A DNA stretch of 64,000 nucleotides. Origin: Pseudomonas maioricensis. Its GTDB lineage: Bacteria > Pseudomonadota > Gammaproteobacteria > Pseudomonadales > Pseudomonadaceae. The notes beneath the pieces are model-generated. The model saw nothing but the letters and a program-made list of their open reading frames with translations. It ran no database searches and was not told the origin of the DNA. Of the stretch, positions 15,835 to 38,226 are shown one piece after another. The stretch's first letter is position 1, and every line of letters starts with the position of its first letter. A program made the position numbers and the translations under genes. Location of the stretch: the NCBI RefSeq assembly GCF_022790535.1, contig NZ_LOHG01000011.1, forward strand, positions 149,820 through 213,819, written 5' to 3'.

Positions 15835-16070
15835 TCGATGGCTTCCAGTTGCGGTTCAGCACTCTGTGTCAGCAAGACTACCCAATTAAACCGCCACGTC
15901 CAAATGCCCGACACCGCTGTTTGCACGCCTATGCTACCGAGACCGGACAGCTTTACGGTTCTCGCTATACACCTGCGCAAACATTGGCTAGCAACTCGCC
16001 AACTTTTTCGCCTGCATCAACTACAGTGCAATGACTCTGGATAAAGCCATAACAAGACGGAGCATTCCCA

Positions 16071-17027: not shown

Positions 17028-17107
17028 ACAGGCAAAGTGCAGAGGCGCCACGTGCCGCCGCACCGACACGTCGCTCGATTTCAATGCAGTCATGAGGCAG
17101 GCAGCAC

Positions 17108-19512: not shown

Positions 19513-20002
19513 GACCAAGGCCGCGACTGCAACTGACCTGGCAACAGAACAGGTTGGATAAAAAGCGTGCATTAATCTGCCTTAAGAAAAATTTAGTTTA
19601 AAGGACGGGCTTAGCGGCCCAAAATCCTGCCGCCGTTAGAGTTCACACCATCACTGCACATTGCCTGAGTCGCGTGTGAGCACTGCGCACAAGGCGTGAT
19701 TTTCAATTCAATGATCAGCTCTAATGTTCAGCGTTCTGACGGACATAAACGATCGCTTACCAGGCCTGTGACCGCAGCCTGGTTGACCTCATAAAGTTGT
19801 TCTCAAGGGTGAATGGCTTCGCTCCAGAGATTGCAACTGACGCTGATCCCCCGATTGCTCGGGCGGACAACCCACACCCTCGGCACCTGACAGCCGATTG
19901 ATTGTTCGATCCGACTGGGGAACCAAGTATCTCGTTCTACCCTCGGAACAGCGGGCATCAATATAAATGCACGCAATGCGTGCCCTAACCAAGGAGGCTC
20001 TC
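19513..20002. other. Intergenic region upstream of the BCCT gene
   Basis: About 490 bases without a supportable gene. It begins with an AT-rich part (19575-19610) that could act as a promoter, and ends in the strong AAGGAGG ribosome binding site of the BCCT gene at 19991-19997. No clear hairpin terminator follows the DUF1850 stop. Confidence 0.45.
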
Positions 20003-21673: not shown

Positions 21674-21704
21674 CGCCTGAAGGGTTCGCCATTATCTTCA
21701 GGAA

Positions 21705-21746
21705 CTGCGGGGCTGTAACGCTTCTGGAAGCGTTGCTACCTCGCAG
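21705..21746. repeat. Hairpin downstream of the BCCT gene
   Basis: Nested inverted repeat. The inner arms AACGCTTC and GAAGCGTT (21717-21734) are perfect around a two-base loop, and the outer arms CTGCG and CGCAG close a longer stem. It lies about 30 bases after the BCCT stop without a T-run, so it is a transcript-end stem or a weak terminator. Confidence 0.45.
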
Positions 21747-21876
21747 TGTGGCATGAGGATGGCTGACCTGTTCCTGCCCATTGTGAACAACAGGTACCCG
21801 GTTCAACCAGCCTCCCTGGCGCCGAAAAGTCTCTGCGGTTCTACGCAATAAACCTTCGATTACCCAAGACAGCCGG

Positions 21877-22599
21877 TCAATCCCATAACGCCCCGACGGG
21901 AGTCGACGAGGAGTAGTGTTTGGCTACTTGCGCCTGCAGCAACTCGGCAGTAGCAAGGGCATCGGTTAATGCGTGATGCGCATGGTAGTTTGGCAGGTTG
22001 TAGCGCACGCGGCTGTCAGCCAGCCTGATCGAGGGCTGAGGACGACGCAGAAGCCGGTCGAGCCATCCCGGTTTCTGTCTGTGCATTCGTGCTTCCAGCT
22101 GCATGGTGTCAATGACCGGAAATTGCAGCCCTTCTCCCAGGTAACGGCGAAACGCCTGATCAAGAAAGCCTCGCTCCATATTGCGGTAATGCACAACCAT
22201 CACCTTCCCTGCCATCGCACCCAACAGGGCGTCCACAACCTCCGTCAGGGGGGGAGCCTGCAAAATATCGGTATGGGTTATGTGGTGGAACGTGATCGAT
22301 TGGTCACTCAGCCCTGAGGGAGGCTTGATCACCCGATAAAATGCCTGACCACAGCATACACGTTGCAAGCTGAACGGCATCAGCCCGATGCTGACAATGC
22401 TATCGCTCTGCGCATTGAGGCCGGTCGTCTCCACATCCATGGCCAGCAGTTGCACTTGCTCTATGGGGGTGTTTGCGTCGACGACGCCAGCTTCATAGAA
22501 GCTTCGCACGCAAGGATTAATCGCGTTCTTAGCCAATGTCTGAAACCTGTCGGCCCACTCCACGGTTTCAGGTTTGCTTACGGAGCGGCCATTCATCAT
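21877..22599 (-). CDS. 3'-5' exonuclease, DEDDh family (DNA polymerase III epsilon-like)
   Basis: A 240-residue protein. The ExoI motif is in LAMDVETTGLNAQSDSIVSIG (Asp and Glu), ExoII lies around VVHYRNMERGFLDQAF, and ExoIII is HHALTDALATAELLQ with the His of the DEDDh type. An N-terminal part of about 50 residues precedes the nuclease fold. It overlaps the upstream DUF294 gene by four bases, so both are coupled. This pair recurs in Pseudomonas and other gammaproteobacteria; the exonuclease may act on RNA or DNA in a signalling-linked process (inference). Confidence 0.9.
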   Translation of the reverse strand: MMNGRSVSKPETVEWADRFQTLAKNAINPCVRSFYEAGVVDANTPIEQVQLLAMDVETTGLNAQSDSIVSIGLMPFSLQRVCCGQAFYRVIKPPSGLSDQSITFHHITHTDILQAPPLTEVVDALLGAMAGKVMVVHYRNMERGFLDQAFRRYLGEGLQFPVIDTMQLEARMHRQKPGWLDRLLRRPQPSIRLADSRVRYNLPNYHAHHALTDALATAELLQAQVAKHYSSSTPVGALWD

Positions 22600-24476
22600 T
22601 GCGGCTGACGCCCTTTGCCCGGATAGCGAAACCGCAGAAAATTCTGCGCATTGCTCAACACCTGAAACGCCTCTTTCAGGTTGTGCCTTTCACTGGTCGA
22701 AAAGCGCTCAGGCTCGATGTAGTTATCGGGCGTCGTGCCCTGCTCCAGGGCGTCTGCTTGATGCCGGATGCGGACCATGGACAAAAACTCCAATGCGTAA
22801 CGCAGATGCTCAACTGCATCGGGCTGTAAACGCTGGGTCGTGCTGATTGCATCGAGGCGATCAAATGAGTTCTGCGCCGTGCTGGCGCATGCCAGAGCAT
22901 GGATGCGGATGAGATCGGTCAGGGGCGCTGTTCCCCTGCCCTTCAAATTGATGATTCTCTTCTGCTGGCCGTCTGTTTCCACTACAAAAGTACGGAAGAA
23001 TCCCAACGGAGGTGTACGGTTCAGCGCGATCCGGGCCATTGCGTTAAGAAACCCGGGATGGGTGCTGGATTTTTCCGCACACAACGTCTTGAGTTCCTGA
23101 ACGAGATCTAGCTGGCCATAGACACCATCGAGGTCGAAAAAAATACAGCTGTTAAGTAGCGTCGCAGCATTTGGTTTTTCAATCCATTGCTCAAAGTAGG
23201 CCCGCCAGACCCGTAACGGCTGCCGCCACTGATCATTGGTGGCCATCACCCCACCCTTGCAGTAGCTATAACCGCACGCTGCGAGGCCATCACTGACGAA
23301 TGTGGCCAGACTGTGAAAATAACCGTCATGCAGGACGGGATCGAACCGATCATCCAGCACCAGAGCGTTATCCTGGTCGGTTACCAGCAGTTGTTCATCT
23401 CGTGCCATCGAGCCCAATACCATGAAGCAGTACGGTACTGGCGGCGGGCCGAGTTCTTTCTCCGCCAACTCAATCAGACGTTGGGTAAAGGCCCGGCCAA
23501 TACCTGAAATAGCGCTGCCAATCATGTGCGCAGTCGCGCCGTCCCGCACCATGCGAATGTAGGTCGCGCGAAGATCGCGGAGCAACGAGCGCAGTCCCGC
23601 GACAGACGTCTGATTGGATATTCGGTTGACCAGGTACAAGCTACTCTGGGACTCGTAACGGATGATATCCGACAGATTAATCAGCCCTAAGGTACGGCCC
23701 TTGTACACGACTGGCAGGTGATGAATATTGCGCCTCAGCATCACCAGCATGGCCTCGAACACCGAGTCATCTGCCTGTATTGCTACGGGATCACTGGACA
23801 TGACTTCACTGATAGGTGTAGACACCCCACTTAGCCCCAAGGCAACCAAACGGGTACGCAGATCACGATCAGTGACGATACCGACCATCTTTGCCGCTTC
23901 GCCTTCAACCGCAGCCATAACCACAACACAAGAAACACTTTGTTCGGTCATGACTTTAGCGGCGTCATGCACCGAGGTATCGGATGCGACCCAAACCAGC
24001 GCACGAGAAATCAAAGCGCGACTTTTGAGCTGGATCAACTCGCTTGCACGGCCTTGGGCATCGACGGCGGACTTGAGTCTGGAGTGGCCTTCAGCCTCAA
24101 CGAAATCGGCAAAGGCATCGTGTTGCGCGCATAACTGAGCGAACACCTCTGCGGGAATAAAGTAAATCAGGCTGTCTTCCAGGGCCCGGGCAGGAAAGCG
24201 AACTTTGTTGCTGCGCAGCAAACCTGCCTGGCCAAAGATGTCTCCTTCAACGAGTCGGTTATAGAGCTCACCATTTCTGCGATAAACCTCCACTGCCCCG
24301 CTGCGCACGTAGTGCAGATCCTGAATGACCGCTCCCGCCTCAAGAATATCGCTGCCGGCCTTGAAATAGCTGACTTCAACGCGCCGGGCGATAGCATCCA
24401 GCGATGCCTGGGGCAAGGTATCGAAAGGTGCGAAGCGTTGAAGATGGTCGCGAATCTCCAGTAACTCGATTTGCAT
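22596..24476 (-). CDS. cNMP-binding/CBS/DUF294 nucleotidyltransferase-like protein
   Basis: A 626-residue cytoplasmic protein. Domains in order: a cyclic-nucleotide-binding fold at about 15-125 (LPQASLDAIARRVEVSYFKAG), two CBS domains at about 160-285 (VASDTSVHDAAKVMTEQSVS; FEAMLVMLRRNIHHLPVV), then a DUF294 nucleotidyltransferase-like domain with the GSMARDEQLLVTDQDNALVLDD signature (Gly-Ser plus two acidic residues). A DUF294 C-terminal helical domain closes it. The layout resembles GlnD-like regulators of metabolism. The catalytic residues look intact. Coupled to the downstream exonuclease gene by an ATGA overlap. Confidence 0.9.
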   Translation of the reverse strand: MQIELLEIRDHLQRFAPFDTLPQASLDAIARRVEVSYFKAGSDILEAGAVIQDLHYVRSGAVEVYRRNGELYNRLVEGDIFGQAGLLRSNKVRFPARALEDSLIYFIPAEVFAQLCAQHDAFADFVEAEGHSRLKSAVDAQGRASELIQLKSRALISRALVWVASDTSVHDAAKVMTEQSVSCVVVMAAVEGEAAKMVGIVTDRDLRTRLVALGLSGVSTPISEVMSSDPVAIQADDSVFEAMLVMLRRNIHHLPVVYKGRTLGLINLSDIIRYESQSSLYLVNRISNQTSVAGLRSLLRDLRATYIRMVRDGATAHMIGSAISGIGRAFTQRLIELAEKELGPPPVPYCFMVLGSMARDEQLLVTDQDNALVLDDRFDPVLHDGYFHSLATFVSDGLAACGYSYCKGGVMATNDQWRQPLRVWRAYFEQWIEKPNAATLLNSCIFFDLDGVYGQLDLVQELKTLCAEKSSTHPGFLNAMARIALNRTPPLGFFRTFVVETDGQQKRIINLKGRGTAPLTDLIRIHALACASTAQNSFDRLDAISTTQRLQPDAVEHLRYALEFLSMVRIRHQADALEQGTTPDNYIEPERFSTSERHNLKEAFQVLSNAQNFLRFRYPGKGRQPQ

Positions 24477-24766
24477 GGAACCTCAAGGTTGATGAACAAG
24501 GTGGGTTCGGCGAAGTACCCGGGCAGTATTGGTGCTCCAGTCATGCGCCACCAAATCACATGTCAGAGCGATGTTCAACCAACCTGTGCCCGTGTGAAGA
24601 ACCCCGCATGGGGAACCGTCGTAATCGCTGTATGTCCTCGTAGCCAGCAACAGGTCGTCTTGTCATGCACATTTGTGTAACATGCCCCGCTGGGTGTCAC
24701 CGCACAACGCGGCATGGCAGGTTTAACTTAGCGCAGGTCGGGCCGCCGCGCGGGGTTATCGCGCCT

Positions 24767-25969
24767 ATGAACCTGGATCCCTCACGTCTTGAAAAAGACC
24801 ATAGCCATCGTGCAACACCTGCCACGCTGGCTTTTCTCACCCGCTTTTTCGCTGCCGAATCCGCTGGCGGCCTGATGTTGATGGCGGCTGCGTTTGCCGC
24901 TCTCGTCGTCGCCAACTCCTCATGGTCTGAAGCTTACTTTTCAACCCTGCATATCAAGCTATTCGGTCTCTCGATCGAACATTGGGTCAACGATGGGTTG
25001 ATGGCTATTTTCTTCATGCTGGTCGGCCTCGAAATCAAGCGTGAAATGCTCGTGGGTCAGTTATCCAGATGGAGCCAGCGCGCACTTCCAGGCTTTGCCG
25101 CACTGGGAGGGATGCTTTTGCCGGCATTGATCTACATTGCCATCAACTGGGGAAATCCTGAAACCCTGGGTGGGTGGGCAATCCCTGCGGCAACGGACAT
25201 CGCCTTTGCGTTGGGCGTTTTGTCCCTGCTGGGCAAGCGCGTTCCTGTCTCTTTGAAAATTTTTCTGTCTGCGCTGGCGATTCTTGATGACCTTGGGGCA
25301 GTGGTGATCATCGCACTGTTCTACACCAGCGGTTTATCCATCAGCATGCTCCTGGCTTCGCTGGCCGTGATTGTGTTTTTGCTCGTGCTCAACCGTTGTG
25401 GAGTGAAGAGGCTCTGGCCTTACCTGATGGCGGGCGGTTTGCTGTGGTTCTTCATGCTCCAGTCCGGCATTCACGCAACCTTGGCGGGAGTCATTCTTGC
25501 ACTCTGCATTCCGCTGGGTGATTCGAACAACGAGCGAAACTCTCCACTTCTCTATCTGGAGGAAAAGCTGCATCCGTGGGTTGCTTTCGCCGTCGTGCCC
25601 GTCTTTGGTTTTGCCAATGCAGGGGTGTCTTTTGCAGGCATGTCGCCAGGTAATCTGATTGATCCAGTGCCGCTGGGTGTTGCTTTGGGGCTCTTGCTGG
25701 GTAAGCAAGTGGGCGTGTTCGGTTTCTCAGCGCTGGCCATTCGTTCAGGTCTGGCAAAATTGCCGGAAGAATGTGGTTGGTTCCATCTATACGGCATAGC
25801 ACTGCTATGCGGCATTGGCTTCACGATGAGCCTGTTTATCGGGGCGCTCGCCTTTGCCGGAAATCCACTCCTGGTGGATGAGGTAAAGGTCGGTGTGTTA
25901 CTCGGTTCTGTGCTTTCCGCTGCTCTAGGGGTTGCTGTTCTTCTCAGCGCCAGACCGCTCCGGCTCTGA
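24767..25969 (+). CDS. nhaA: Na+/H+ antiporter NhaA, second copy
   Basis: A 400-residue NhaA, close to the family norm of 388. It contains [25 protein letters not shown] (Asp133 equivalent) and [18 protein letters not shown] (Asp163/164 pair). It is nearer to the E. coli protein in length and motif than the copy at 13.0-14.4 kb, which is extended at its N-terminus. The start is placed at 24767 ([12 protein letters not shown]) rather than upstream at 24665, since the extra residues are unlike the family. No strong ribosome binding site is seen. The two copies probably differ in pH range or expression (inference). Confidence 0.92.
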
Positions 25970-26698: not shown

Positions 26699-27208
26699 AT
26701 GGCTAGCCCAAAAGAAAACCTGCTCGATTGGCTTCGCGATGCCCACGCTATGGAGCAACAGGCGGAGAAGATGCTCACTGCTCAATCTGAGCGCCTTGAG
26801 CATTATCCCGAGCTCAAATCCCGGATCGATCAGCACATTCAGGAAACCCTCGGTCAGCAAAAATTGATCGATGAATGTCTGTCCCGCCTTGGCGGCAGCG
26901 CTTCGACGATCAAAGATCTGACCGGCAAGCTGATGGCGTTTGGACAAGCCGTAGGCGGGTCAATGATGAGCGACGAAGTTGTCAAAGGTGCGATGGCTGG
27001 CTACGTATTCGAGAACGTAGAAATCGCTACGTACAAGGTGCTCATTGCGGCGGCGCAAGCGGCTGGCGATGCCCAGACCCAGGCAGCTTGCGAACAAATT
27101 CTTGCGCAGGAAGAAGCTATGGCCAAATGGCTTCTGGAGCACTTGCCCGAGATTACGAAAGCCTTCCTGATCCGGTCAGAAAATCCCGACCTCGAAGCTA
27201 AAAAGTGA
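26699..27208 (+). CDS. yciE: YciE-like ferritin-fold stress protein (DUF892)
   Basis: A 169-residue DUF892 protein. It resembles E. coli YciE along its length: WLRDAHAMEQQAEKML at the N-terminus, SDEVVKGAMAGYVFENVEIATYKVL in the middle, and FLIRSENPDLEAKK at the C-terminus. The fold is a four-helix ferritin-like bundle with carboxylate and His residues that may bind a di-metal centre. In Salmonella yciE belongs to the RpoS-dependent yciGFE-katN operon (known). Here a katN-type catalase follows about 200 bases downstream. The ATG at 26699 has AAGAGGA before it and is preferred to an in-frame start at 26672. Confidence 0.88.
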   Translation: MASPKENLLDWLRDAHAMEQQAEKMLTAQSERLEHYPELKSRIDQHIQETLGQQKLIDECLSRLGGSASTIKDLTGKLMAFGQAVGGSMMSDEVVKGAMAGYVFENVEIATYKVLIAAAQAAGDAQTQAACEQILAQEEAMAKWLLEHLPEITKAFLIRSENPDLEAKK

Positions 27209-27214
27209 CGCTTT

Positions 27215-27244
27215 GGGCACAGCCGCTTATTGCGGCTGCTGCCC
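27215..27244 (+). terminator. Hairpin after yciE
   Basis: GGGCA plus AGCCGC pair with GCGGCT plus TGCCC around a TTATT loop. It follows the yciE stop by seven bases and lacks a T-run, so termination may be partial, with read-through to katN possible. Confidence 0.4.
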
Positions 27245-27408
27245 ACCACTCAGTCCATAACAGGCGAAAAAGTGGGAACCTTCTGAAGCAAACCATTCGT
27301 CAACCCAATCAAAAACTGCTGAAATTTTCCGCTCAATCCTCCGCTCATTAGTTTGCAAGCGCAGTCATCCGAAGTGATGACATGACCCCGTGAACGAGAG
27401 GAATGAAC

Positions 27409-28284
27409 ATGTTTCTACACAATAAACGTCTTCAGTACACCGTCCGTGTTGCTCAGCCCAATCCAGGTTTGGCGAATCTTTTACTTGAACAATTTGGCGG
27501 TGCCCAGGGAGAACTGGCGGCCGCTGCTCGCTACTTTACCCAGGCATTGGCAGAAGAAGATCCAGGCAGAAAAGACCTTTTGATGGATATCGCTACCGAG
27601 GAGCTGAGCCACCTCGAAATCGTCGGGTCAATCATTGTGATGCTCAACAAAGGTGCAAAGGGTCAACTGGCGGAAGGTGTACAGGAAGAGGGCGAGCTGT
27701 ACCGTGCCATTAACGGTGCCGGTAACGACTCCCACATCACCAGCCTGTTGTACGGCGCAGGTGCGCCATTGGTGAACTCCGCGGGTGTTCCCTGGACAGC
27801 CGCTTACATTGACACCATTGGTGAACCTACTGCCGACTTCCGCTCGAACATCGCCGCAGAAGCCCGCGCCAAGATGGTTTACGAGCGCCTGATAAATGTG
27901 GTGGACGATCCGGGCATCAAAGACGCGCTGGGCTTCCTCATGACGCGTGAAATAGCGCATCAGAAATCGTTCGAGAAAGCTCTCCACTCCATCCAGCCGA
28001 ATTTCCCGCAGGGCAAACTGCCCGGTATGCCTGAGTTCGCCCGAACCTATTTCAACATGTCCAATGGCGAGCCAAATTTGCGCGGTCCCTGGAACAGTGA
28101 GGATGAGTTTGAGTACGTCGAAATCCCGCAGCCGGCAGTCGATGGCGGTGACGGTACAGCATCGGTAATGCTAAATGACGCCGAGGCGACCACACTCGAA
28201 ATGATGAAGCTGCGAACCGCATCTGACACAACCGCAAATCCCGTCACGGGTGCGGACCTTGGCTCTGGTCTGGCTCAAAAATAA
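27409..28284 (+). CDS. katN: Manganese catalase (KatN-like)
   Basis: A 291-residue non-haem catalase that converts hydrogen peroxide to water and oxygen. The di-manganese ligands expected for the family are in place: Glu35 (GAQGELAAAARYF), Glu65 and His68 (ATEELSHLEIVG), Glu151 (AAEARAKMVYERL) and His184 (TREIAHQKSFEKAL). The opening MFLHNKRLQYTVRV is typical. A start at 27409 gives a better-spaced ribosome binding site (GAGAGGAA) than the ATG six bases earlier. The neighbours are yciE upstream and a sensor kinase downstream, which fits a general stress role. Confidence 0.93.
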   Translation: MFLHNKRLQYTVRVAQPNPGLANLLLEQFGGAQGELAAAARYFTQALAEEDPGRKDLLMDIATEELSHLEIVGSIIVMLNKGAKGQLAEGVQEEGELYRAINGAGNDSHITSLLYGAGAPLVNSAGVPWTAAYIDTIGEPTADFRSNIAAEARAKMVYERLINVVDDPGIKDALGFLMTREIAHQKSFEKALHSIQPNFPQGKLPGMPEFARTYFNMSNGEPNLRGPWNSEDEFEYVEIPQPAVDGGDGTASVMLNDAEATTLEMMKLRTASDTTANPVTGADLGSGLAQK

Positions 28285-28304
28285 AGCGCGACATAAAGCA
28301 GACT

Positions 28305-28330
28305 ATGGGTGCCGGGACTCCAGCACCCAT
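28305..28330 (+). terminator. Hairpin between katN and the small membrane gene
   Basis: ATGGGTGC and GCACCCAT form an eight-base stem with a ten-base loop, followed by CTTTGATT. It is placed 20 bases after the katN stop. A weak terminator or mRNA-end stem; the small gene at 28351 would be expressed by read-through. Confidence 0.4.
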
Positions 28331-28350
28331 CTTTGATTGGGAGATATGGC

Positions 28351-28491
28351 ATGCGAATAATCAGAGAGATAGCCAAATCAGAAGCTATGGAAAGCTTTAT
28401 CGCCCGCCCCAGATTCGCGTTAGGCGCGACGATTTTCTTGGCGGGAACCAGCCTTTTACTGACTGAAGCTCTCAAGGTCATTTACAGGTAG
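28351..28491 (+). CDS. Small single-pass membrane protein
   Basis: A 46-residue frame with a GGGAGATA ribosome binding site eight bases before the ATG. It has a charged N-terminus (MRIIREIAKSEAMESFIARP) and one hydrophobic helix (ALGATIFLAGTSLLLTEAL) ending in KVIYR. The clear start signal, single helix and place right behind katN make it a plausible gene, though I know no family for it. It may be membrane-stress related like other genes here (inference). Confidence 0.5.
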   Translation: MRIIREIAKSEAMESFIARPRFALGATIFLAGTSLLLTEALKVIYR

Positions 28492-28710
28492 GTCAACGGC
28501 GACGGGAACCGCGCAATCAATTCCAGCTCGGCAGAGCTGCAGCGTCTGCGCAAAGGCAGTGCGCCGCTGTCACGGCACAGGAGACAGACGGGTCACTGAT
28601 ACGGCGATGACAGATGCTTAACGGTAATAGAGGCCAGCGACCCCACCAACATGATCGCTGCCATGACAACGATGTCGCCCACCTGAAAATACGTGGGCGA
28701 CATTACCTGT

Positions 28711-31700
28711 TTAGTCCCGTGCCACAACCAACTCACGAATCAGCCTGATCAAATCTTCCAGTGCCACGGGTTTACCAAGGGAGGCATCAAAACACCCCTC
28801 CCCTTGGTAGTTCGCTCCCTCACCCGCTCCATATCCCGTAAGCGCAATCGCTGGCAGTGTTGTGTAGTCCGGCAGTTTGCGCAGCGCGGCAAGAAATTGA
28901 TGACCGTCCATACCTGGCAGCCCTATGTCGGAAATGATCACGTCGAAGCGTTGCGATGGTGCCACGGTCAGCGCAGTTGACGGATGATCGAATGCTTCTA
29001 CCTGTCCATCCTCCAGTTCAAGCAACAACTGCAGCGCTTCCAGAACCTCGGACGAATCATCAACCAGCATTATCCTGATACCGGAGAGTTGACCACCGTC
29101 AGCATCGAGACCCTGGGCATCTTGCTGACCCGACACATCTGCCAACGGCAACTCCACAGTGAAGCATGAGCCTTTGCCCGCCCCCTCGGAATACGCATGA
29201 ATTCGCCCATGATGGCTTTCCACCAGTTGCTCGACCAGCGCAAGGCCAATCCCCAACCCAGCCCGGCGCTGACCCGCAGGATGGTGATCAGCTTGTCCAA
29301 ACATCTCAAAGATGCGTTGCAACTGATCTTTCTCGATGCCTGGCCCCGTATCGGTTACCTCGATACGTACCCACTGCTCCTGCTGCGTTACCACAACGCT
29401 CACATCGCCTTCGGCCGGAGTAAATTTGATGGCATTACTCAGCAAGTTCCAGATGATCTGTTCGATTCTGGTCTGGTCTGCGTGAATGAACAGGCTCTGC
29501 TGCGGTGTCTCGAACCGGATCTTGCAACCTGGCTCGGCCTTGAAGACTACCTGTCTGATTTCGTTGACCACCGCCACTATATCGAGCGTCTTGCATTGCA
29601 ACTGCAATTTGCCATTACGTACCCGCGCAACATCCATCAGGTCATCGATGATGCGTGCCTGGCTAGCAACTGCGTCGGTGATGGTGCCAATGGCTTTTTG
29701 CAGCGTCGGGTCTTTTTTCGCGACCGGAAGCCGCCGAGCCACCTGAGCATTTAACTGAATAAGATTTAACGGATGTTTGAGTTCATGCGACATGACCGCA
29801 AAGAACTGGTCCTTTTGCTGGATAGAGTTCAGTGACTCCGCAAGGCTCTGCTGCTGTTCTTCCTGCAACTTGATATGGTCAGTCATATCGCGCGCGATTT
29901 TGACGAAGCCCTGGAAACCTTTGCTCGCCAACGCGGTGACCTCACCACTGCAATAGAACCTGCTGCCGTCCTTGCGCACATGCCAGCGCTCGTCATCGCT
30001 ACGGCCATGGGTACTGGCAGTGGCGAGCTCCGTTTCCGGAACACCTGAGCGTTGATCCTCGTCGGAAAAAATGAAGCGAAAATGCCTGCCTTCGGCTTCC
30101 TCTCTGCTGTATCCAAAGGTGTGCCACGCGCCTTTGTTCCAATCGGTAATGATGCCCTGCTCATCCAGCACCACGATTGCATAATCATGGGTGCTTTCCG
30201 TTACAAGGCGCATTCGCTCTTCACTCAAGCGAAGTTCCTGCTCCGCCTCGCGGCGGGAGGTGATATCAACAAAAGTGAGAACGATCCCACCGATCTGATC
30301 CACGTTGGACCGGAAAGGCAATACCCGCACGATGTACCAGCGGCCGCTGGAACTGGCGATTTCCCGCTCGATGCCCTTTAGCGATTCGAACACCGACATG
30401 GCATCGTCGATCATTTCATCGTATTTAAGCCGGTGAGTGATATCCATCAACGGGCGGCCAGCGTCTACCGACCGCATGTTGAAAATATCGGTCGCCCTCG
30501 GGGTGAACCATTTGATTCGCAGTTCTCTGTCAACGAAAACAGTCGCGATGTCGGTGGAGCTGATCAGGTTACTCAGGTAGTCGTTGACCTGGTCTGTTTC
30601 CTCGACCTTGATCTTCAACTCGTGGTTCACCGTCAGAAGCTCTTCGTTGATCGACTGCAACTCTTCCTTGCTGGTTTCCAGCTCTTCGGACGCGGACCGC
30701 AGTTCTTCATTGATCGCCTGCATTTCCTCATTGGAGGCCTTGAGCTCTTCGCTGGAGACCTCCGCCTGCTCGATCACTTCCTGAAGTTGCAATTTGGTCC
30801 GCTGCAACTCGCGGTCCAGATTGGAAAGCATCTGGTTCTCTGACTGCACGGACACATCGGAGCTGACGTTCTGCGCGTCTATCTCCTGCTCGCTGAACAG
30901 GATGTACAGGCAGTTGAGCTCTGTTACCGAGTCGGTGAAAGGATGCACTTCAATCTGCACCTGATAGTGCTGTGCGTCGCGCTTATGGTTAACGGGACGC
31001 GCTCTGGCGGATTGCCCGGATTGTTGAGCCTGGAAGATCGTAGTACGCAGTTCCAGACGCAGGTCGCCGCTGACCAGCGACAGCAGATTATTGCTGACTT
31101 CTCCCGTCATATGCTGCAAGTAGCGGCCAGCCCCCTGGCTGATATAAAGCACATCCGCTTCGTTATTGATAATAATGCTGGGCGGGGAAAAGCGTTCTGC
31201 AGCCCGGTGGTAAAGCTCGACCGTTGACGGCTTTTTGGCCACCCGGGCGTCGCTGGGCTGGGACGCCGAAATTGTTCGGGCATAGCCACCACGAGGCATC
31301 GCCGGCAGTCGATGGGTGTTCGGGCCGCTGCGCGCGCGAAAGATGCGATTTTTTTTGTCCAGGGTCGTGAATAGTTCAGGGCACGCATCGGCTGATTCCG
31401 AAGTGCCAAGAAACAGATAACCTCCCTCGCGCAGCGCAAAATGGAACATCTGCAAAATCTCGCGCTGAACGTCGCGATCAAGATAAATGAGCAGATTGCG
31501 ACAGACAATCAGGTCGATCTGCGAAAAAGGCGGATCTACCAGCAGGCTATGTTTGGCGAACAGAACGCGCTCGCGAATGTCTTTGCGCACCCGGTAGTTG
31601 GTGTCCTCCTTGACGAAGTAATGGCGCAACCGTACAGGCGAGACGTCGGTGACAATGGCTTCGGAATAGAGCCCATTGCGACCGGCACCAATAGCGCGTT

Positions 31701-32838
31701 CGTCAATATCGCTGGCGAATATCTGGATCTTGAGATCGGAAGATATCTCGGCTTTGTAATCGTTGAGCAGAATAGCGAGCGAGTAGGCTTCCTCACCCGT
31801 GGAAGTGCCCGCAGACCAGACACGAATTTCCTTGGCACTATCCGGGTGTTGCTGACGGGCGAAAAGCTGCGGCACCACTTCGCGCTCCAGCGACTCAAAA
31901 GAATCACGATCGCGAAAGAAATTGGTCACGCCAATGAGCATGTCATCAAGCAGCGCCTTGGTTTCTTCAACGTGCTCCTCTATGTAGCGATAGTAAGACG
32001 GTAAATCAGGTTGCGTTGTGACCTGCATTCGCCGCTCGATACGACGTAGAACAGTGGCCCGCTTGTAGTGCCGAAAATCGTGTCCGGTGCCTGCACGCAA
32101 CTTGGCGAGAATATCAAGCAACGCTTGCTCGGCTTGTTCGGCCGCCCGCTCATCGAGTTTGGGCGCAGGACCAGGAAGAATGTCAGCGGCATTCGGCAGC
32201 TGGATGCGCTGGGCGTTGTGCCATAACTCCAGAATCTTCTGCGGCAGCTCGACCACCGGCAGCACGAAGTCAACCTGCTGAGTCTTGATAGCTGCCTGCG
32301 GCATCCCGTCGTACTCGGCATCCTCCGGGTGCTGGGCAAGCGTCACCCCGCCTTGCTCTTTGATACGCGATAAGCCAACGGCTCCGTCAGAGCCGGTACC
32401 TGACAACACGACGCAAAATGCGCGCTCTTTATGTACATCAGCCAGGTCGCGGAAAAACAGGTCTATGGTCTCGTGACCGCCATGCCTGGGGACCGGAGGC
32501 AAGGCGCGCAAATAACCATCGTTCATGGCCAGGCGTTGCCCTGGGGAAATGACGTACACATGGTTGCGTTCGATGGGTAAGGCAGAAGTCAACTGTGTGA
32601 CCGGCATTTTGGTTCGGTTGGCGAGTAGTTTGCCAGCGCTGCTTTGGTGCTCGGGAGACAAGTGCAGCACCACCACAAAGGCCATTCCGCTATTAGCCGG
32701 CATGTGCTCGAAAAAGTGCTGAGCAGCCTGCAGTCCGCCTGCAGAGGCCCCAATGCCGACTACTGGAAAATCAAGGTGGCTGGGCTGGGTATCATTGCGC
32801 TGAGGGCGGCCTACGCCGGCATTTTCCTGGGTGTTCAT
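28711..32838 (-). CDS. CheB-CheR-PAS-PAS hybrid histidine kinase with receiver domain
   Basis: A 1375-residue cytoplasmic signalling protein. The CheB methylesterase domain (24-205) keeps its triad Ser32 (GASAGG), His59 and Asp151. The CheR methyltransferase (about 230-505) has VWSAGTSTGEEAYSLA. A Glu-rich coiled coil (about 665-750) leads to a PAS10-type domain (755-860), a PAS domain (880-990), HisKA with His1018 (SHELKHPL), an ATPase domain with NAIKF, DTGPG and GLGIG, and a C-terminal receiver with Asp1304 and Lys1356. All catalytic residues look intact. I chose ATG 32838, which has AGGACTT before it, over the longer frame to 33012. It points away from katN and faces stress genes on both sides; no cognate receptor is adjacent. 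Confidence 0.93.
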   Translation of the reverse strand: MNTQENAGVGRPQRNDTQPSHLDFPVVGIGASAGGLQAAQHFFEHMPANSGMAFVVVLHLSPEHQSSAGKLLANRTKMPVTQLTSALPIERNHVYVISPGQRLAMNDGYLRALPPVPRHGGHETIDLFFRDLADVHKERAFCVVLSGTGSDGAVGLSRIKEQGGVTLAQHPEDAEYDGMPQAAIKTQQVDFVLPVVELPQKILELWHNAQRIQLPNAADILPGPAPKLDERAAEQAEQALLDILAKLRAGTGHDFRHYKRATVLRRIERRMQVTTQPDLPSYYRYIEEHVEETKALLDDMLIGVTNFFRDRDSFESLEREVVPQLFARQQHPDSAKEIRVWSAGTSTGEEAYSLAILLNDYKAEISSDLKIQIFASDIDERAIGAGRNGLYSEAIVTDVSPVRLRHYFVKEDTNYRVRKDIRERVLFAKHSLLVDPPFSQIDLIVCRNLLIYLDRDVQREILQMFHFALREGGYLFLGTSESADACPELFTTLDKKNRIFRARSGPNTHRLPAMPRGGYARTISASQPSDARVAKKPSTVELYHRAAERFSPPSIIINNEADVLYISQGAGRYLQHMTGEVSNNLLSLVSGDLRLELRTTIFQAQQSGQSARARPVNHKRDAQHYQVQIEVHPFTDSVTELNCLYILFSEQEIDAQNVSSDVSVQSENQMLSNLDRELQRTKLQLQEVIEQAEVSSEELKASNEEMQAINEELRSASEELETSKEELQSINEELLTVNHELKIKVEETDQVNDYLSNLISSTDIATVFVDRELRIKWFTPRATDIFNMRSVDAGRPLMDITHRLKYDEMIDDAMSVFESLKGIEREIASSSGRWYIVRVLPFRSNVDQIGGIVLTFVDITSRREAEQELRLSEERMRLVTESTHDYAIVVLDEQGIITDWNKGAWHTFGYSREEAEGRHFRFIFSDEDQRSGVPETELATASTHGRSDDERWHVRKDGSRFYCSGEVTALASKGFQGFVKIARDMTDHIKLQEEQQQSLAESLNSIQQKDQFFAVMSHELKHPLNLIQLNAQVARRLPVAKKDPTLQKAIGTITDAVASQARIIDDLMDVARVRNGKLQLQCKTLDIVAVVNEIRQVVFKAEPGCKIRFETPQQSLFIHADQTRIEQIIWNLLSNAIKFTPAEGDVSVVVTQQEQWVRIEVTDTGPGIEKDQLQRIFEMFGQADHHPAGQRRAGLGIGLALVEQLVESHHGRIHAYSEGAGKGSCFTVELPLADVSGQQDAQGLDADGGQLSGIRIMLVDDSSEVLEALQLLLELEDGQVEAFDHPSTALTVAPSQRFDVIISDIGLPGMDGHQFLAALRKLPDYTTLPAIALTGYGAGEGANYQGEGCFDASLGKPVALEDLIRLIRELVVARD

Positions 32839-33253
32839 CACGTAAGTCCTATCGTGGCCGTACCTATTCTGTAAGTTACCTCTTAGAGCAAGCTTGTTAG
32901 CTACGGTCGTCCATGGCGAACAAAGAATCTGCAGCAAGCGAACACCTGGAAAAGAGATGGTATTCATAATAGCGCATAGGTGAAGCCCTGACGTCATGCC
33001 ATGAAGATGCAACGTGACGTTGGCAAAACGCCTGCACCATTAACCGCTTGCGGTGATTCCTAGTGATGCCATAGAGATATCAGCTGACTCGACCGGATAG
33101 TTGCGCCTGATTAACGGGAGGTCTCACGACAAGTGCCTTCGCGCTGCGAGCTTCATCCGCCCGCGGTAATACTGACAGAACCCTCATGGGCTATCGGCGT
33201 CTACCGGTGCATGCAGTCGACGATATCCAACCACTTTGATACGAGGGGTCAAC

Positions 33254-34033
33254 ATGGTCGCCGAGCTTAACTCCGAAAAAAACACATCAACGACAGGTAA
33301 GCTGGCCATCGCCTGTTTCGTCTCATCGGCAATCGCAGGATGTGCCGGGAGCAACAGCGCATCTCCGGTCGAGGCACCGGGTAATCCCGCCACGGTGCTC
33401 ACCAGGACTCTTGAGGCTGGAGCAGATGCGCTTCAGTCCCGCCCGCCTGTCGCGGCACTCAATACATACCTGGATGGCTTCCACTTTTATAACGGCGACA
33501 TGAAGGCGCAAATGGAAGCTCATCACTACTGCTCAGTCCTCAATGAAGAGGTGATTCAGTGCGTGATCTATGACGGCAACATGAAGGATGCCAAGCTGAT
33601 GGGCGTGGAATACATCATCAGCGAGCAGTTGTTTTCTACTCTGCCTCCAGCCGAGAAAACGTTATGGCACAGCCATGTTCACGAAGTGAAGTCTGGCCAG
33701 CTCATTGCTCCCGGTATCCCTGCGGCGGCTGAACACGCCTTGATGGAAAAGCTGGTTCACACCTATGGCAAGACGTGGCACACCTGGCATACCGATCAGG
33801 ACAAACAACTGCCCTTGGGCATGCCTCAGCTCATGATGGGTTTCACAGCCGACGGCCAGGCCGATCCATCGATGGTCATGCAGCGCAACAAACGATTTGG
33901 CATTGATAGCGCAGCAGAGAAAAAAGCCCGAGAGGACATCCCTGCGCCAAGCGTGCAGCCCGGGGCAGACGCCTGGAGTGACGGCAAGGTGATTCAGATT
34001 GATGACCCTTCTAGCGCCCGGCACTCTCACTAG
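33254..34033 (+). CDS. DUF1264 lipoprotein (OBAP-like)
   Basis: A 259-residue protein. A lipobox is at the end of a hydrophobic stretch (ACFVSSAIAGC, Cys30), after an unusually long polar N-terminus of about 16 residues. The rest is the DUF1264 domain: LDGFHFYNGDMKAQMEAHHYC, CVIYDGNMKDAKLMGVEYII, LWHSHVHEVKSGQLIAPGIP and a His/Trp-rich WHTWHTD. This family includes plant oil-body-associated proteins; the bacterial function is not known to me. The His clusters suggest metal binding. It starts at ATG 33254, preceded by GAGGGG. Divergent from the sensor kinase. Confidence 0.85.
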   Translation: MVAELNSEKNTSTTGKLAIACFVSSAIAGCAGSNSASPVEAPGNPATVLTRTLEAGADALQSRPPVAALNTYLDGFHFYNGDMKAQMEAHHYCSVLNEEVIQCVIYDGNMKDAKLMGVEYIISEQLFSTLPPAEKTLWHSHVHEVKSGQLIAPGIPAAAEHALMEKLVHTYGKTWHTWHTDQDKQLPLGMPQLMMGFTADGQADPSMVMQRNKRFGIDSAAEKKAREDIPAPSVQPGADAWSDGKVIQIDDPSSARHSH

Positions 34034-34114
34034 CGCGGAACTGGGGACCCTTGTCCTCTCAGGCAGCACGTCGACTTAAGTATCGAGTAACAACACATCA
34101 GGAGCGACTGACTA

Positions 34115-34354
34115 ATGGGCAAGGACAGTGCAATCCTCGTTGCCGGAATTTTCAACCAGCTTCGCGTCCTCCGGGAATCCGTGATGGTTCTGGAGGCCGC
34201 CTAATCTGACTTGACGTCGCTCCAGGGCTCGCAAACGATGGATATTGAGGGGGCTGTCCATCTGTCTTTCATGAAACTTCAAGATCAGATCGCTGGAATG
34301 GAGGAGACCCTGGCATCCATTGCAGAGGCTACCGGTGAGATACCCAAGTTGTGA
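34115..34354 (+). pseudogene. Small coiled-coil-type gene interrupted by one in-frame stop
   Basis: ATG at 34115, with AGGAG before it, opens a frame of 29 codons (ending LRESVMVLEAA) that hits TAA at 34202-34204. The same frame continues without another stop for 49 codons, SDLTSLQGSQ to EATGEIPKL, and ends at TGA 34352-34354. Both parts have the same amphipathic, protein-like composition (FMKLQDQIAGMEETLASIAEA). A single-base change to TAA in a 79-residue gene explains this. Alternatives are stop readthrough or two tiny peptides. I do not recognise the family. Confidence 0.65.
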
Positions 34355-34582
34355 GTTCAGGAAGAGCGAGGTTGGCCCTTGAGAGTTCATCCACCCCACG
34401 ACCTTCACGGGCGGATTGACTCGGTACCCTGTCGCTGCCCGCTTATAACTTCTGCAACCGTCGCGCCTTCAGGGGCTGAGCTGGCCATTCGGAAACTGTG
34501 TTACTGACTGGAAGCGTTGAACGTTGCTTCACGCGGTACATCAGACATGATCGGGTTCCCCGTACAGCCACCTGTACAGGAC

Positions 34583-34607
34583 AAGCGGCGCCGTTGCAGC
34601 GCCGCTT
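34583..34607 (-). terminator. Hairpin downstream of yciF
   Basis: AAGCGGCGC and GCGCCGCTT form a perfect nine-base stem with a seven-base loop, 17 bases after the yciF stop on the minus strand. No T-run follows on that strand; the palindrome CCTGTACAGG at 34571-34580 does instead. Confidence 0.5.
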
Positions 34608-34624
34608 GCTTCACCTCAACGCTG

Positions 34625-35125
34625 TCACTTGGATTCCAGCGTTGCGGCCTGATTACCGCCTTGCTCCGCAATCTTTGTCAGCTTTTCATCAGCGCCCTTT
34701 TCCTCAGCGAGCGTGGCAGCCAACAACGCTGCAGCGTCATCAAGTTTAAGATGTTTGGCCATTGCCAGCAGAGTGCCATAGGCGGCTATCTCGTAGTGCT
34801 CAACCTTCTGCGCCGCACCAATCAACGCCGCATCCAGAACGGCCCCCTTCTCGATCTCTTCCAGGATCTCTTTGGACTCTTCAACCAGCCCCTCCATGGC
34901 CGCGCATTTCATGCGTTTCAACTTTAACCCGGTTAGTTCCACCAGTTGATCAATACGCTCGATCTGACCTTGGGTTTCCTCAAGATGTGAGTTGAAGGCA
35001 TCTGCCAGCAGCGGGTTGGTCGCCGCTCTCGCCAAACGCGGCAGCGCTTTGGTGATTTGCTTTTCAGCACTGTAAACATCGGAAAGTTCATGGATAAACA
35101 GGTCTTGGATAGTTTTTCTAGCCAT
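34625..35125 (-). CDS. yciF: YciF-like ferritin-fold stress protein (DUF892)
   Basis: A 166-residue DUF892 protein resembling E. coli YciF: DLFIHELSDVYSAEKQITKALPRLARA, HLEETQGQIERIDQL, KRMKCAAMEGLVEE, and DAALIGAAQKVEHYEIAAYGTL. The Glu and His residues of the ferritin-like di-metal site are visible (EETQGQ, KVEHYE). In enterobacteria yciF lies next to yciE and, in Salmonella, katN (known). Here it is 7.4 kb from yciE on the opposite strand, with a sensor kinase and a DUF1264 gene between. A GGAAG element precedes the start. Confidence 0.9.
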   Translation of the reverse strand: MARKTIQDLFIHELSDVYSAEKQITKALPRLARAATNPLLADAFNSHLEETQGQIERIDQLVELTGLKLKRMKCAAMEGLVEESKEILEEIEKGAVLDAALIGAAQKVEHYEIAAYGTLLAMAKHLKLDDAAALLAATLAEEKGADEKLTKIAEQGGNQAATLESK

Positions 35126-35697
35126 TTCAACACTTCCTTCTGATCAGTATGCCGTCGCCTCGTCGCGGCGTTCGCATGGGATTTACATTGCAGTATTTGC
35201 AATGCACGAAAAACTGACCCGGTTGATTTAGGAAGTGTTCAAAGAATTTTCACAGGGGCGGATAAAAGGTTCAGAGATCACTCAAGGCTGAACCAAGCCC
35301 GCCGCACTTTCCCACCCAGCGCGCGATCGCGCCTATGTTTGTGCAGCAATAAGGGATGTTTTAACGACGTGCGCGCGAACATGTTAATCGCGCCTGAGGC
35401 GATCAGATCAGTAGAATAGATTGCGGTCACATCAGGGCATTATCACGAACACGCCTATAAGAGGCGTCGTCAATAACCAATGCTTATCAGCATTCGTTGT
35501 GACAGCCCGACTTGGTTGCCGGTGATGTTGTGAAAATAAACACGCATACGTCCCGAGAAACAATCGCAGACAGATAGACGAGTCGGCCCTCATGGACAGA
35601 CGGCTGACCTCATCCATTCGTGCTGATGAGATTCGCTTTGGCAACGCGGGCCAGGATGAAGCCAGGCCTGGCCGGCGCTGCCAGTCACGACGGTTGC
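35126..35697. other. 570-base intergenic region upstream of yciF
   Basis: Contains the yciF promoter region and otherwise nothing I can support. A 70-codon minus-strand frame around 35432-35644 and plus-strand frames around 35592-35805 have Arg- and Ser-rich noise-like translations. Confidence 0.4.
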
Positions 35698-35847
35698 CTA
35701 CTTGTGTTCATCGGCCTTGCCCTCTTGCATCTGAACAGAGGATCGAGTGCCGTCCGTATTGGCTTTGGTCGTAGTGTCGGAGTTCTCGAAGCAGCCGTGC
35801 AGTAACACTACAATGCTCAAACCTAGGAAAATGTGTAATTTTTTCAT
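35698..35847 (-). CDS. Small lipoprotein, 49 residues
   Basis: The frame starts MKKLHIFLGLSIVVLLHGC, a clean lipoprotein signal with the lipobox LLHGC (Cys19). The mature tail of 30 residues is polar (FENSDTTTKANTDG, ending in GKADEHK). The start follows GAGGCGTGAAG, and the gene begins two bases after the stop of the DUF1652 gene, so the two are almost surely coupled. Short lipoproteins of this kind are often missed in annotation. Function unknown. Confidence 0.7.
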   Translation of the reverse strand: MKKLHIFLGLSIVVLLHGCFENSDTTTKANTDGTRSSVQMQEGKADEHK

Positions 35848-35849
35848 CT

Positions 35850-36131
35850 TCACGCCTCGTTCACACGTTTACTGGAAGCGAATTTCCTTTCTTGACTATT
35901 GGCATTCGCGAGTCGATAGCGAACATCGCCAATGAGCTCCGCTATTGCTCTACTGGTCGACAGACCTTTGAAATCCAGATCCGGAATAACGACAGATATC
36001 AGTGGATGGTTGTTTAACGTCACGCGAAGCGTATGCAAGCCATTATCTTCGCTGAACAAGCAGTGATCCGGCAGTAGCGCACGCTCGATGATGTATTTAA
36101 TTTCCAGGGCAGACAAACCATAATTATCCAT
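35850..36131 (-). CDS. DUF1652 domain protein
   Basis: A 93-residue protein. The first half, LSALEIKYIIERALLPDHC, followed by TLRVTLNNHPLISVVIPDLDF, fits DUF1652, a family seen almost only in Pseudomonas. The start at 36131 (MDNYG) has GAGGA seven bases before it; the frame runs on to 36206 but the extra residues do not look like part of the domain. Function is unknown. It forms a two-gene unit with the lipoprotein immediately downstream. Confidence 0.8.
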   Translation of the reverse strand: MDNYGLSALEIKYIIERALLPDHCLFSEDNGLHTLRVTLNNHPLISVVIPDLDFKGLSTSRAIAELIGDVRYRLANANSQERKFASSKRVNEA

Positions 36132-36431
36132 GGGTAAATCCTCAAAAACCTCACTTCCAAGTGAATATTTATCATATGAATCTGAGGCGAAGCGCCAGGC
36201 ACTCACCTTATTAACATCCGACTAAGTGAGCTCTCGAAACGCTTTATTTTTTGAATCATTTACCGACGAATGGCAGCATTGCCGCTGCGCTTTCACAGGA
36301 CACCTGTTTATGTAGCTGCGCTACTTGTACGACTCTTGTATAACTTACGTTTCGTAAACTGATGTTTGCCTGCTATCAATGCGATTATCCGAAGCAACAT
36401 CTGCGGTGAAGTCATTCACCGCCGAGATCTG

Positions 36432-36872
36432 TTAGTCAGGAATGATCGAGATCTTCCCGTTGCGCTCCAGAATGGCGTATTTGATCTGCTCTACTCGCTC
36501 GACCCCCTGCCCGATTCTTGCAGCTTCCATGATGTCATCTTCCTGAATCCGCGCTTCGTGCATGCGATGGCGCAAAAATGCGCCGTTCTCCACAACAATG
36601 GTCGGGCCCCCATCGATCAGTTTTGCGACCCGCTTGAAGCGACGTTTGATCAGCGAAAACCCGATGTCGATCACCATGAGCGTGATGATAACCAGAATGG
36701 CATTAGTGACCGAAAAATCATCCCCAAGTAACGCTTGCTGGGTGGCTTCACCGATGACCATCAGCAAGACGAAATCAAACGAAGTCAGCTCTCCCAGAGA
36801 TCGTCTGCCTGATATTTTGAACAGCACCATCAACGCAAGATAGATGGCGCCCGCGCGCAAGACTGCATCCAT
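36432..36872 (-). CDS. DUF421 domain membrane protein (YetF-like)
   Basis: A 146-residue protein with three N-terminal membrane helices (AVLRAGAIYLALMVLFKISG; FDFVLLMVIGEATQQALLG; NAILVIITLMVIDIGFSLI). A cytoplasmic DUF421 domain follows with RVAKLIDGGPTIVVENG and RHRMHEARIQEDDIMEAAR. YetF proteins are implicated in stress and spore-related functions in Bacillus; the role in Pseudomonas is unclear. The ATG at 36872 is preceded by AGGTG. The gene upstream on the same strand ends only seven bases before it, so they form an operon. Confidence 0.9.
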   Translation of the reverse strand: MDAVLRAGAIYLALMVLFKISGRRSLGELTSFDFVLLMVIGEATQQALLGDDFSVTNAILVIITLMVIDIGFSLIKRRFKRVAKLIDGGPTIVVENGAFLRHRMHEARIQEDDIMEAARIGQGVERVEQIKYAILERNGKISIIPD

Positions 36873-36879
36873 GTGGCAC

Positions 36880-37392
36880 CTATGGGTAGATAAATTGAGT
36901 GATCGGAATGTGGCCACCACCGGCGATAGCGATCTCGCTTCTGATGAGTCCCAGGCCACTGCTTTTCCAGGAAACGTAAAGTGTCGCGTCTCCCCGTTTA
37001 TCAGCCATCAGCGTAAGCGCCAGACCCTCGGACGTGCCTGTTGAAGTTATCGGCTGTGGCTGGATTGAATCGATGCTGAAGCTTTCCAGCATGCCCTTGC
37101 CAATCAGCACTGTGACCGTTTGACCGGCTTTTCCCTGCGTTCGTATGATCATCGAGTTCGAGCCGCCGCTGCGATGGAAACGCTCATACTCCACAGTCAG
37201 ATCCCCTGGATCACTGACGGCTACGAGCGAGCTGAGCGGCCCCCTAGAAAATAAGCCAAGCAGGGTCAGGATCACCACCGCCAGAAGCACGTACCAACCT
37301 AAGCGCTCGAACTTCCAGACCTTGCGTTGCAACTGGATATCCTCGATCACTGGATGCTCGCGATCCTTCATCTCATGCTCTAACACGCCCAT
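36880..37392 (-). CDS. Membrane-anchored hypothetical protein paired with DUF421
   Basis: A 170-residue protein with a polar start (MGVLEHEMKDREHP), one membrane helix (LGWYVLLAVVILTLLGLFS) and a periplasmic beta-rich domain of about 115 residues (DLTVEYERFHRSGGSNSM, SEIAIAGGGHIPITQFIYP). The C-terminal SEIAIAGGG-type ending recurs in uncharacterised proteins next to DUF421 genes, as far as I recall. Start at 37392 is chosen for GGGGCGAGG just before it; 37371 is possible. Cotranscribed with the DUF421 gene, and the two proteins may interact in the membrane (inference). Confidence 0.75.
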   Translation of the reverse strand: MGVLEHEMKDREHPVIEDIQLQRKVWKFERLGWYVLLAVVILTLLGLFSRGPLSSLVAVSDPGDLTVEYERFHRSGGSNSMIIRTQGKAGQTVTVLIGKGMLESFSIDSIQPQPITSTGTSEGLALTLMADKRGDATLYVSWKSSGLGLIRSEIAIAGGGHIPITQFIYP

Positions 37393-37788
37393 GTGCCTCG
37401 CCCCGATAGATGACCAATCATGACCCTGAGAGTCGCCGACCACACCGTTCTCAATGGAGCGCTCGCCCCCTGTCATAGTTCCAGAGCATCATGATCCGAC
37501 CACGGCAGTGAGGTAGCCAACGCTTGAATAGTCCAGACTGGCCGGGATCAATCCGGGTCCTGACAGCGGTCTCAAAGACCGCCTGGCAAAGGAATGGCAA
37601 GTAGTAGTACTCGCGGATGGGGTACTCGCACCTCCAGGCGTCTGACGGCACCGAAGGTTCGCGCATGTGTCGACTTAACGGTGCGTCGCGCTGACGCTTG
37701 GACAAAATGCCGACCTTTGGTCCGTCATCCCGATCAGACCGGCAGTAACGAAGTCGAATATTTCAACCCACCCGCTCAGGAGATGCCG
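37393..37788. other. Divergent intergenic region before the DUF4174 gene
   Basis: About 400 bases between divergent genes. An 84-codon minus-strand frame (37451-37705) is present but overlaps the upstream part of the neighbour's frame and shows no known domain. No gene is called. Confidence 0.4.
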
Positions 37789-38226
37789 ATGAAAAGCTAT
37801 ATAACCCCGCTGGCCTTGCTGCTTGGTATGGCGGGTAGCCAGGTGATGGCTCAGACTTCGTCCAACCCCCTGGACAGTGAGCGCTGGCAGTCCCGGCCGC
37901 TGATCGTGGTGGCGCCCAACGCCGGCGATGCTACCTGGCTGCAGTTCGAGCAGGACCTGATGAAGCCTGCCAACCGTGAAGCCTTCGTCGACCGCGAAAT
38001 GGTGCTGTATACCGTGGTGGGTGGAGTCGGTAAACGCAATGACCAAGCCCTGGACCCGCGCGCGACCTCAGCTCTGCTGAGCAGCCTTGGCGTTGAGCCC
38101 GACGGCCCGACCCGGTTGCTGCTGGTAGGTAAAGACGGCGGCACAAAAATTGACCAACACGCGCCACTGGACGTCAGCGTGGTCTTCGCGACCATCGACA
38201 AAATGCCGATGCGGCAGAATCGCTGA
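37789..38226 (+). CDS. DUF4174 secreted protein
   Basis: A 145-residue protein with a signal peptide (MKSYITPLALLLGMAGSQVMA). The mature part is a DUF4174 domain: RPLIVVAPNAGDATWLQFEQDL, FVDREMVLYTVVGGVG, TRLLLVGKDGGTKID, then a C-terminal FATIDKMPMRQ. It resembles a thioredoxin-like fold without the CxxC pair. The ATG at 37789 follows AGGAG by seven bases; another ATG six bases earlier overlaps the ribosome binding site. Function unknown; periplasmic. Confidence 0.85.
   Translation: MKSYITPLALLLGMAGSQVMAQTSSNPLDSERWQSRPLIVVAPNAGDATWLQFEQDLMKPANREAFVDREMVLYTVVGGVGKRNDQALDPRATSALLSSLGVEPDGPTRLLLVGKDGGTKIDQHAPLDVSVVFATIDKMPMRQNR

Follow-up and report, generated by a model that had tools for sequence, protein, structure and literature searches.

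Stress-survival regions holding the manganese catalase gene katN have been described in several bacteria. In P. aeruginosa, the genes PA2134-PA2190, among them katN (PA2185) and the hybrid kinase gene PA2177, share one expression profile, and 32 of the 57 are reported to be regulated by quorum sensing (QS) and/or RpoS (PMC1525188). Biofilms formed by mutants in PA2184 (yciE) show susceptibility to peroxide and tobramycin (PMC9262955). PA2184, which is listed beside yciE, interacts with the KGG protein PA2146 (PMC9262955). RpoS control of KGG proteins has been described in Salmonella (PMC7161692), and the Pantoea element ICEPan carries katN with yciEFG as cargo (PMC4458695). Here, we analyse a 64,000-nt stretch of the genome of Pseudomonas maioricensis (5.9 Mb in 41 contigs), hereafter the window (G000:C11:149820-213819), in which yciE, katN and yciF are grouped with a CheB-CheR hybrid sensor kinase gene and a DUF1264 gene. 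A sequence-only reading of this DNA had proposed an undescribed stress-resistance module; since PA2134-PA2190 and the ICEPan katN-yciEFG cargo are described relatives, the block is instead a variant of the described Pseudomonas stress region. It is probably a stress-survival island of mosaic make-up, belonging to the stationary-phase kind known from Pseudomonas, in which the kinase is a recurring but exchangeable part.

The block begins with the gene for a YciE-type ferritin-like protein of the DUF892 family (169 residues; 26699-27208, forward strand), followed by katN, encoding a manganese (non-haem) catalase of 293 residues (27403-28284, forward), and immediately 3' of katN by a gene for a 46-residue protein with a single hydrophobic stretch and without a Pfam match (28351-28491, forward). 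The gene for the 1375-residue soluble kinase (28711-32838, reverse) converges on katN across a gap of about 0.43 kb and diverges from the DUF1264 gene, with which it starts back to back; the latter encodes a 265-residue putative lipoprotein of the OBAP family (33236-34033, forward; Pfam 245 bits) with a lipobox-like IAGC in its sequence. A second DUF892 protein, of the YciF type (166 residues; 34625-35125, reverse), completes the block, so that yciE, yciF and everything between them span 8.4 kb, with genes on both strands. The block is not a single operon. Coordinates, Pfam families and solved relatives thus agree with the earlier description of yciE, katN and yciF as split over 8.4 kb and two strands, and the families and coordinates given for the kinase, DUF1264, DUF421 and DUF4174 genes hold as well. 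The named genes are real, but the list had overlooked the 46-residue gene and a 198-residue gene at 36880-37476.

KatN, YciE- and YciF-type proteins are what the window has in common with Salmonella, where katN stands with yciG-yciF-yciE. The arrangement of that operon, adjacent genes on one strand with yciG, is not found here: yciF and katN are 6.3 kb apart and on opposite strands, with the kinase and DUF1264 genes between them, and no YciG relative was detected in the window (tblastn with YciG-type frames of related loci as queries, E 0.01). With PA2134-PA2190 the window shares katN and a hybrid kinase among stress genes; it differs in having DUF1264, yciF and DUF421 nearby, and no glycogen, trehalose or LigD protein was found among the Pfam-scanned window proteins. 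Furthermore, the PAS domains of PA2177 occupy residues 62-180 and 190-308 (PMC8694187), which leaves no space for N-terminal CheB and CheR domains, so PA2177 is not of the CheB-CheR kind. ICEPan resembles the window as a case of katN and yciEFG in mobile cargo, whereas the available part of its description mentions no CheB-CheR kinase or DUF1264 (PMC4458695). A literature search, limited to the parts of papers available, turned up no study of the CheB-CheR-kinase architecture in stress islands.

The Pfam Mn_catalase match of KatN covers most of the protein and reaches 318 bits against a cut-off of 27, and in an alignment with solved Mn-catalases, judged by eye, Glu, Glu, His, Glu and His match 1jku at positions that we take, from the Lactobacillus enzyme, to be the di-manganese ligands. 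Each DUF892 protein is closest to its own solved namesake, the YciE-type protein (Pfam 174 bits) to YciE 3ogh (E 6.7e-49) and the YciF-type protein (Pfam 190 bits) to YciF 4eru (E 2.3e-57). The DUF1264 protein gave no meaningful match to solved structures, and a search of the OBAP literature turned up no paper using the term DUF1264 in the texts available. The same genome carries a second Mn-catalase gene (G000:C6:96364-97152) and a second YciF-type gene (G000:C20:5586-6053) on other contigs (loci L196 and L197).

The closest plasmid counterpart of the block is carried by pB76-81 (NC_019328.1), a conjugative plasmid of P. syringae; its katN is 96% identical to that of the window, compared with 89% for the best chromosomal match (among the best 80 of 578 relatives). 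A 13.5-kb segment of this plasmid, flanked by two tyrosine recombinases, holds DUF1264, kinase, yciE, katN and 46-residue genes, arranged in this order, together with others. The DUF1264 relative (68% identity) is annotated as OBAP family, yciE is 89% identical to the window gene, and the 46-residue gene (76% identity) occupies the same place after katN, where it is unannotated. At the DNA level, yciE-katN are 84% identical over 1.9 kb, and a stretch upstream of yciE is shared as well; no yciF match was found in the 40.9 kb of the plasmid examined. As in the window, the kinase gene sits between DUF1264 and yciE-katN, but it is of another type, a GAF-HisKA_2 protein of 401 residues encoded on the opposite strand, and DUF1264 comes first there, whereas in the window yciE-katN precede the kinase gene and DUF1264 follows it.

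Recurrence was surveyed across 199 genomes of the genus, the window's own included; pair counts are for the other 198 and for distances of at most 25 kb. After weak or partial rows had been dropped (4 of 70 for Mn-catalase, taking it from 61 to 60 genomes; 10 of 68 for DUF892, from 47 to 45; 3 of 39 for DUF1264, with 36 genomes kept; none for the kinase), Mn-catalase was present in 60 of the 199 genomes, kinase relatives in 49, DUF892 in 45 and DUF1264 in 36. The strongest pairing is that of katN with DUF892 (36/53 pairs; 33/37 genomes holding both). The other pairings are looser: katN with the kinase in 6/33 pairs (6/25 genomes; 0.36 pairs expected), the kinase with DUF892 in 8/28 (7/20 genomes; 0.30 expected), katN with DUF1264 in 4/32 (4/28 genomes), the kinase with DUF1264 in 4/20 (4/17 genomes) and DUF892 with DUF1264 in 6/32 (6/24 genomes), with a chance expectation of 0.22 to 0.57 pairs over the family pairings. 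The association of the block's gene families is therefore real but loose, and more than chance would give. The sequence-only reading had staked its case beforehand on such families recurring together in other genomes, and by these counts, as well as by the comparison with random stretches below, they do.

A similar picture emerges from the katN loci themselves, which extend to either side by as much as 10 kb, some ended by contig edges, for the best 80 of 578 katN relatives (Pseudomonas, Stutzerimonas, Burkholderia-group or unclassified gammaproteobacteria). Of the 80 loci, 35 hold a yciE- or yciF-type gene, six hold DUF1264 (one match being partial) and one, L010, holds a match to the 46-residue gene (41% identity). 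Of the uncharacterised partners proposed earlier, DUF421 belongs to the recurrent set: it and the 198-residue gene recur jointly, in the identical 7 of the 80 loci. Relatives of the DUF1652, DUF4174 and GNAT genes are absent from all 80 (tblastn, E 1e-5), so that these genes look like bystanders. As for kinases of any kind, 28 of the 80 loci have one at most 9.5 kb from katN, compared with 5 of 40 random stretches (P 0.007). In L026, L032, L035, L039, L198 and L200 (L200 and L032 being probably the same contig), a PAS-histidine kinase (HK)-REC gene stands immediately after katN-yciE.

The surroundings of the kinase relatives were compared with the katN loci by clustering their frames together and naming the clusters by Pfam, for 52 of 55 rows, setting aside the window's own row and two partial ones (G141:C42 and G046). 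Families found in at least three katN loci were counted as shared, and 40 random 20-kb stretches from 20 of these genomes served as controls. At least one shared family occurs in 39 of the 52 kinase neighbourhoods and 7 of the 40 random stretches, and at least two in 36 and 2, respectively. In the kinase tree, most members of a 19-row group have some of LigD, phospholipase D (PLD)-type (cardiolipin-synthase-like), endo/exonuclease/phosphatase, DUF72, ClpP-like and DUF6555 genes nearby; an 8-row group has DUF421, DUF1264 or SDR and TPP-enzyme genes, and some rows of a 6-row group adjoin katN/yciE or YciG. DUF421 adjoins kinase relatives in L026, L039, L153, L156 and L181. The window kinase groups with its nearest relative, L007 (85% identity), which also lies near katN and yciF, in a gene order different from that of the window; L186 joins them on a long, unsure branch.

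Several results weigh against the island reading. A kinase relative of at least 60% identity is present in only 4 of the 80 katN loci and missing from 76, and katN and the kinase lie apart in 19 of the 25 genomes holding both. Within 3 kb of katN, the excess of kinases is not clear (16/80 compared with 3/40 random stretches, P 0.06), and the P values overstate independence, as the genomes are related. The random-stretch tests are likewise not fully independent, because G066/L032, G040/L060 and G172/L052 are probably the same records and four of the katN loci hold a kinase relative. Upstream of the block genes, no RpoS-like -10 element was found and only two weak AlgU-like matches were seen. 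Finally, one 13-row clade of the kinase has at least two katN-neighbour families in a single row, and eight of its 13 rows adjoin a gene for a YcgR-type flagellar regulator; glutamine-synthetase, REC-TPR and FlgN genes are present as well in most of these eight.

This motility-type clade counts in favour of an alternative, namely that the block consists of independent stress genes brought together by chance in a variable region and that the kinase is a passenger with an unrelated role, for instance in motility or cyclic di-GMP (c-di-GMP) signalling. Gene order is not kept even in L007, and in P. putida a separate CheB/CheR pair lies in the cfc cluster of the kinase CfcA, which acts on c-di-GMP (PMC4951495). 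The pair counts of katN and of DUF892 with the kinase, far above expectation, and the 36/52 against 2/40 neighbourhoods with at least two shared families are, however, hard to reconcile with chance, and leaving out the 13-row group raises the latter to 35 of 39. We regard the passenger explanation as improbable.

Another alternative, put forward by the sequence-only reading, is that katN, yciE, yciF and DUF1264 are under the dedicated local control of the kinase, which would sense membrane or oxidative stress. Several kinase types do recur near katN and OBAP genes, and the back-to-back starts of the kinase and DUF1264 genes would suit such a role. Against this, none of the ten proteins scanned with Pfam is a separate response regulator, and kinase relatives are mostly missing from the katN loci, as noted above; the kinase type also varies between islands. 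The upstream regions of katN, yciE and, in part, yciF show little common sequence across species, apart from the stretch before yciE that pB76-81 shares. No shared upstream motif was seen, and scans of the block for sigma-70-like promoters and terminator-like sites gave counts at or below shuffle level. Hydropathy indicates no transmembrane segment in the kinase (highest 19-residue value 1.06), which does not support membrane-stress sensing. That the kinase controls its neighbours is thus not supported, and dedicated local regulation appears unlikely, if somewhat less so than a passenger role.

The reading that we prefer, that of a mosaic island, would have KatN removing hydrogen peroxide, as its described relatives suggest, with the ferritin-like YciE and YciF serving alongside it in one protective programme; the DUF1264/OBAP protein would be an envelope lipoprotein. 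Small units, namely yciE-katN (sometimes with the 46-residue gene), DUF1264, yciF, and DUF421 with the 198-residue gene, have probably been reshuffled among chromosomes and onto at least one plasmid that is conjugative. In this island the sensor would be the soluble multi-PAS kinase; in related islands, comparable places are taken by other CheB-CheR kinases, a PAS-HK-REC kinase or a GAF-HisKA_2 kinase. By analogy with described relatives, induction could be of the RpoS type, and the kinase might sense a cytoplasmic cue and pass the signal beyond its REC domain to a partner whose gene lies elsewhere. In Pseudomonas, the set of stress genes around katN is a mosaic and partly mobile. Different sensor kinases are found in comparable places of these islands, and therefore the question of which targets a kinase serves could be addressed by comparing islands.

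The kinase itself is a CheB-CheR hybrid kinase, with CheB, CheR, PAS_10, HisKA, HATPase_c and REC domains in one chain and with catalytic residues that are largely retained. Its full order is CheB-CheR-(PAS)-coil-PAS_10-PAS-HisKA-HATPase-REC. All of the parts are encoded on the reverse strand: the CheB methylesterase domain (residues 27-202; 32233-32760; 174 bits), the CheR N-terminal and S-adenosylmethionine (SAM)-binding methyltransferase domains (residues 242-495; 31354-32115; 46.8 and 186 bits), a 64-residue coil (residues 684-747; 30598-30789), the HisKA and HATPase_c core (residues 1008-1233; 29140-29817; 49 and 102 bits) and the receiver domain (residues 1256-1367; 28738-29073; 61 bits). 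Across 56 sequences, the window included, the presumed catalytic residues of CheB, S32, H59 and D151, are kept in 54, 55 and 55, and those of CheR, R309, E349, D377 and N448, in all 56, while the presumed phospho-accepting H1018 is kept in 55 and D1304 of the receiver in 52. AlphaFold2 models of residues 1-870, made from four sequences, are poor, with a mean predicted local distance difference test score (pLDDT) of 46.7 and a predicted template modelling score (pTM) of 0.26; they show residues 696-761 as one helix and 540-655 as PAS-like, with blocks mostly at 49-81. One kinase relative, L185, has a Pfam PAS match in the region corresponding to 540-655.

The coil is the most conserved part of the kinase that was measured, with a mean identity of 0.936, compared with 0.81 for CheB and CheR, 0.84 for PAS_10 and HisKA, 0.72 for HATPase and 0.70 for REC. 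It contains six EExx[AST] heptads, whereas in residue shuffles the mean is 1.1 and six occur with a frequency of 0.0008. A search for the coil with PAS_10 in 143 genomes across the class gave 21 places in 15 other genomes, which belong to other genera; the coil is present in 20 of these, and CheR lies in the same frame in 19 of the 20, while the sole place lacking the coil also shows no CheR. A strict chemoreceptor pattern, based on what we take to be the methylation consensus, matches the coil in 55 of the 56 sequences and only 1 of 18 PAS-HK-REC kinases. In our judgement it is unusual for a kinase coil to be conserved so tightly, and this would fit a substrate of the fused methyltransferase.

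One could thus envisage a self-adapting kinase, in which the fused CheR and CheB methylate and demethylate their own coil at residues 684-747, where the EExx[AST] heptads are similar to the methylation sites of chemoreceptors, and provide a chemoreceptor-like memory of past stress. We hold this to be speculative and rather doubtful. The distant frame L260 has the coil without CheR, and the second frame of L262 has a short, 33-residue coil-like match with no CheR. Conservation in the coil extends to almost all positions instead of being confined to the glutamates, which fits a purely structural signalling helix as well. The strict pattern also misses the window's own chemoreceptor (45954-48029) and is for that reason a poor detector of methylation sites. 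Should methylation in cis occur, one kinase would carry its own means of adaptation outside chemotaxis, a mechanism of which a literature search, within the parts of papers available, found no report.

Beyond yciF, the gene at 35850-36206 (reverse) had been named DUF1652, an assignment that is not retained, as its score of 16.5 bits is under the Pfam cut-off of 23. It is followed by the gene for a DUF421/YetF membrane protein of 146 residues (36432-36872, reverse; Pfam 56 bits) and, immediately 5' of that gene, by the gene for the 198-residue membrane protein (36880-37476, reverse), which has no Pfam family at threshold. The DUF4174 gene lies at 37789-38226 (forward), in a longer frame that begins at 37594. 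Over 35001-37000, adjoining the yciF and DUF421 genes, G+C drops to 0.498 from about 0.53-0.58 around it. At 34115-34354, one in-frame stop interrupts a small frame (about 80 codons); alignments with its relatives from L017, L007 and L004 continue past this stop, so that the frame looks like a broken gene.

On its other side, the block adjoins a salt/osmotic stretch (13019-25969) with genes for NhaA, a ClC channel, a TRAP transporter, a BCCT transporter, a cNMP-CBS-DUF294 protein and a further NhaA. The two NhaA Na+/H+ antiporter genes, at 13019-14440 and 24665-25969, each have an Rfam nhaA-I riboswitch match (14379-14440, reverse, and 24692-24750, forward). The second of these lies inside the long NhaA frame, and the true start of that gene is therefore probably further in.

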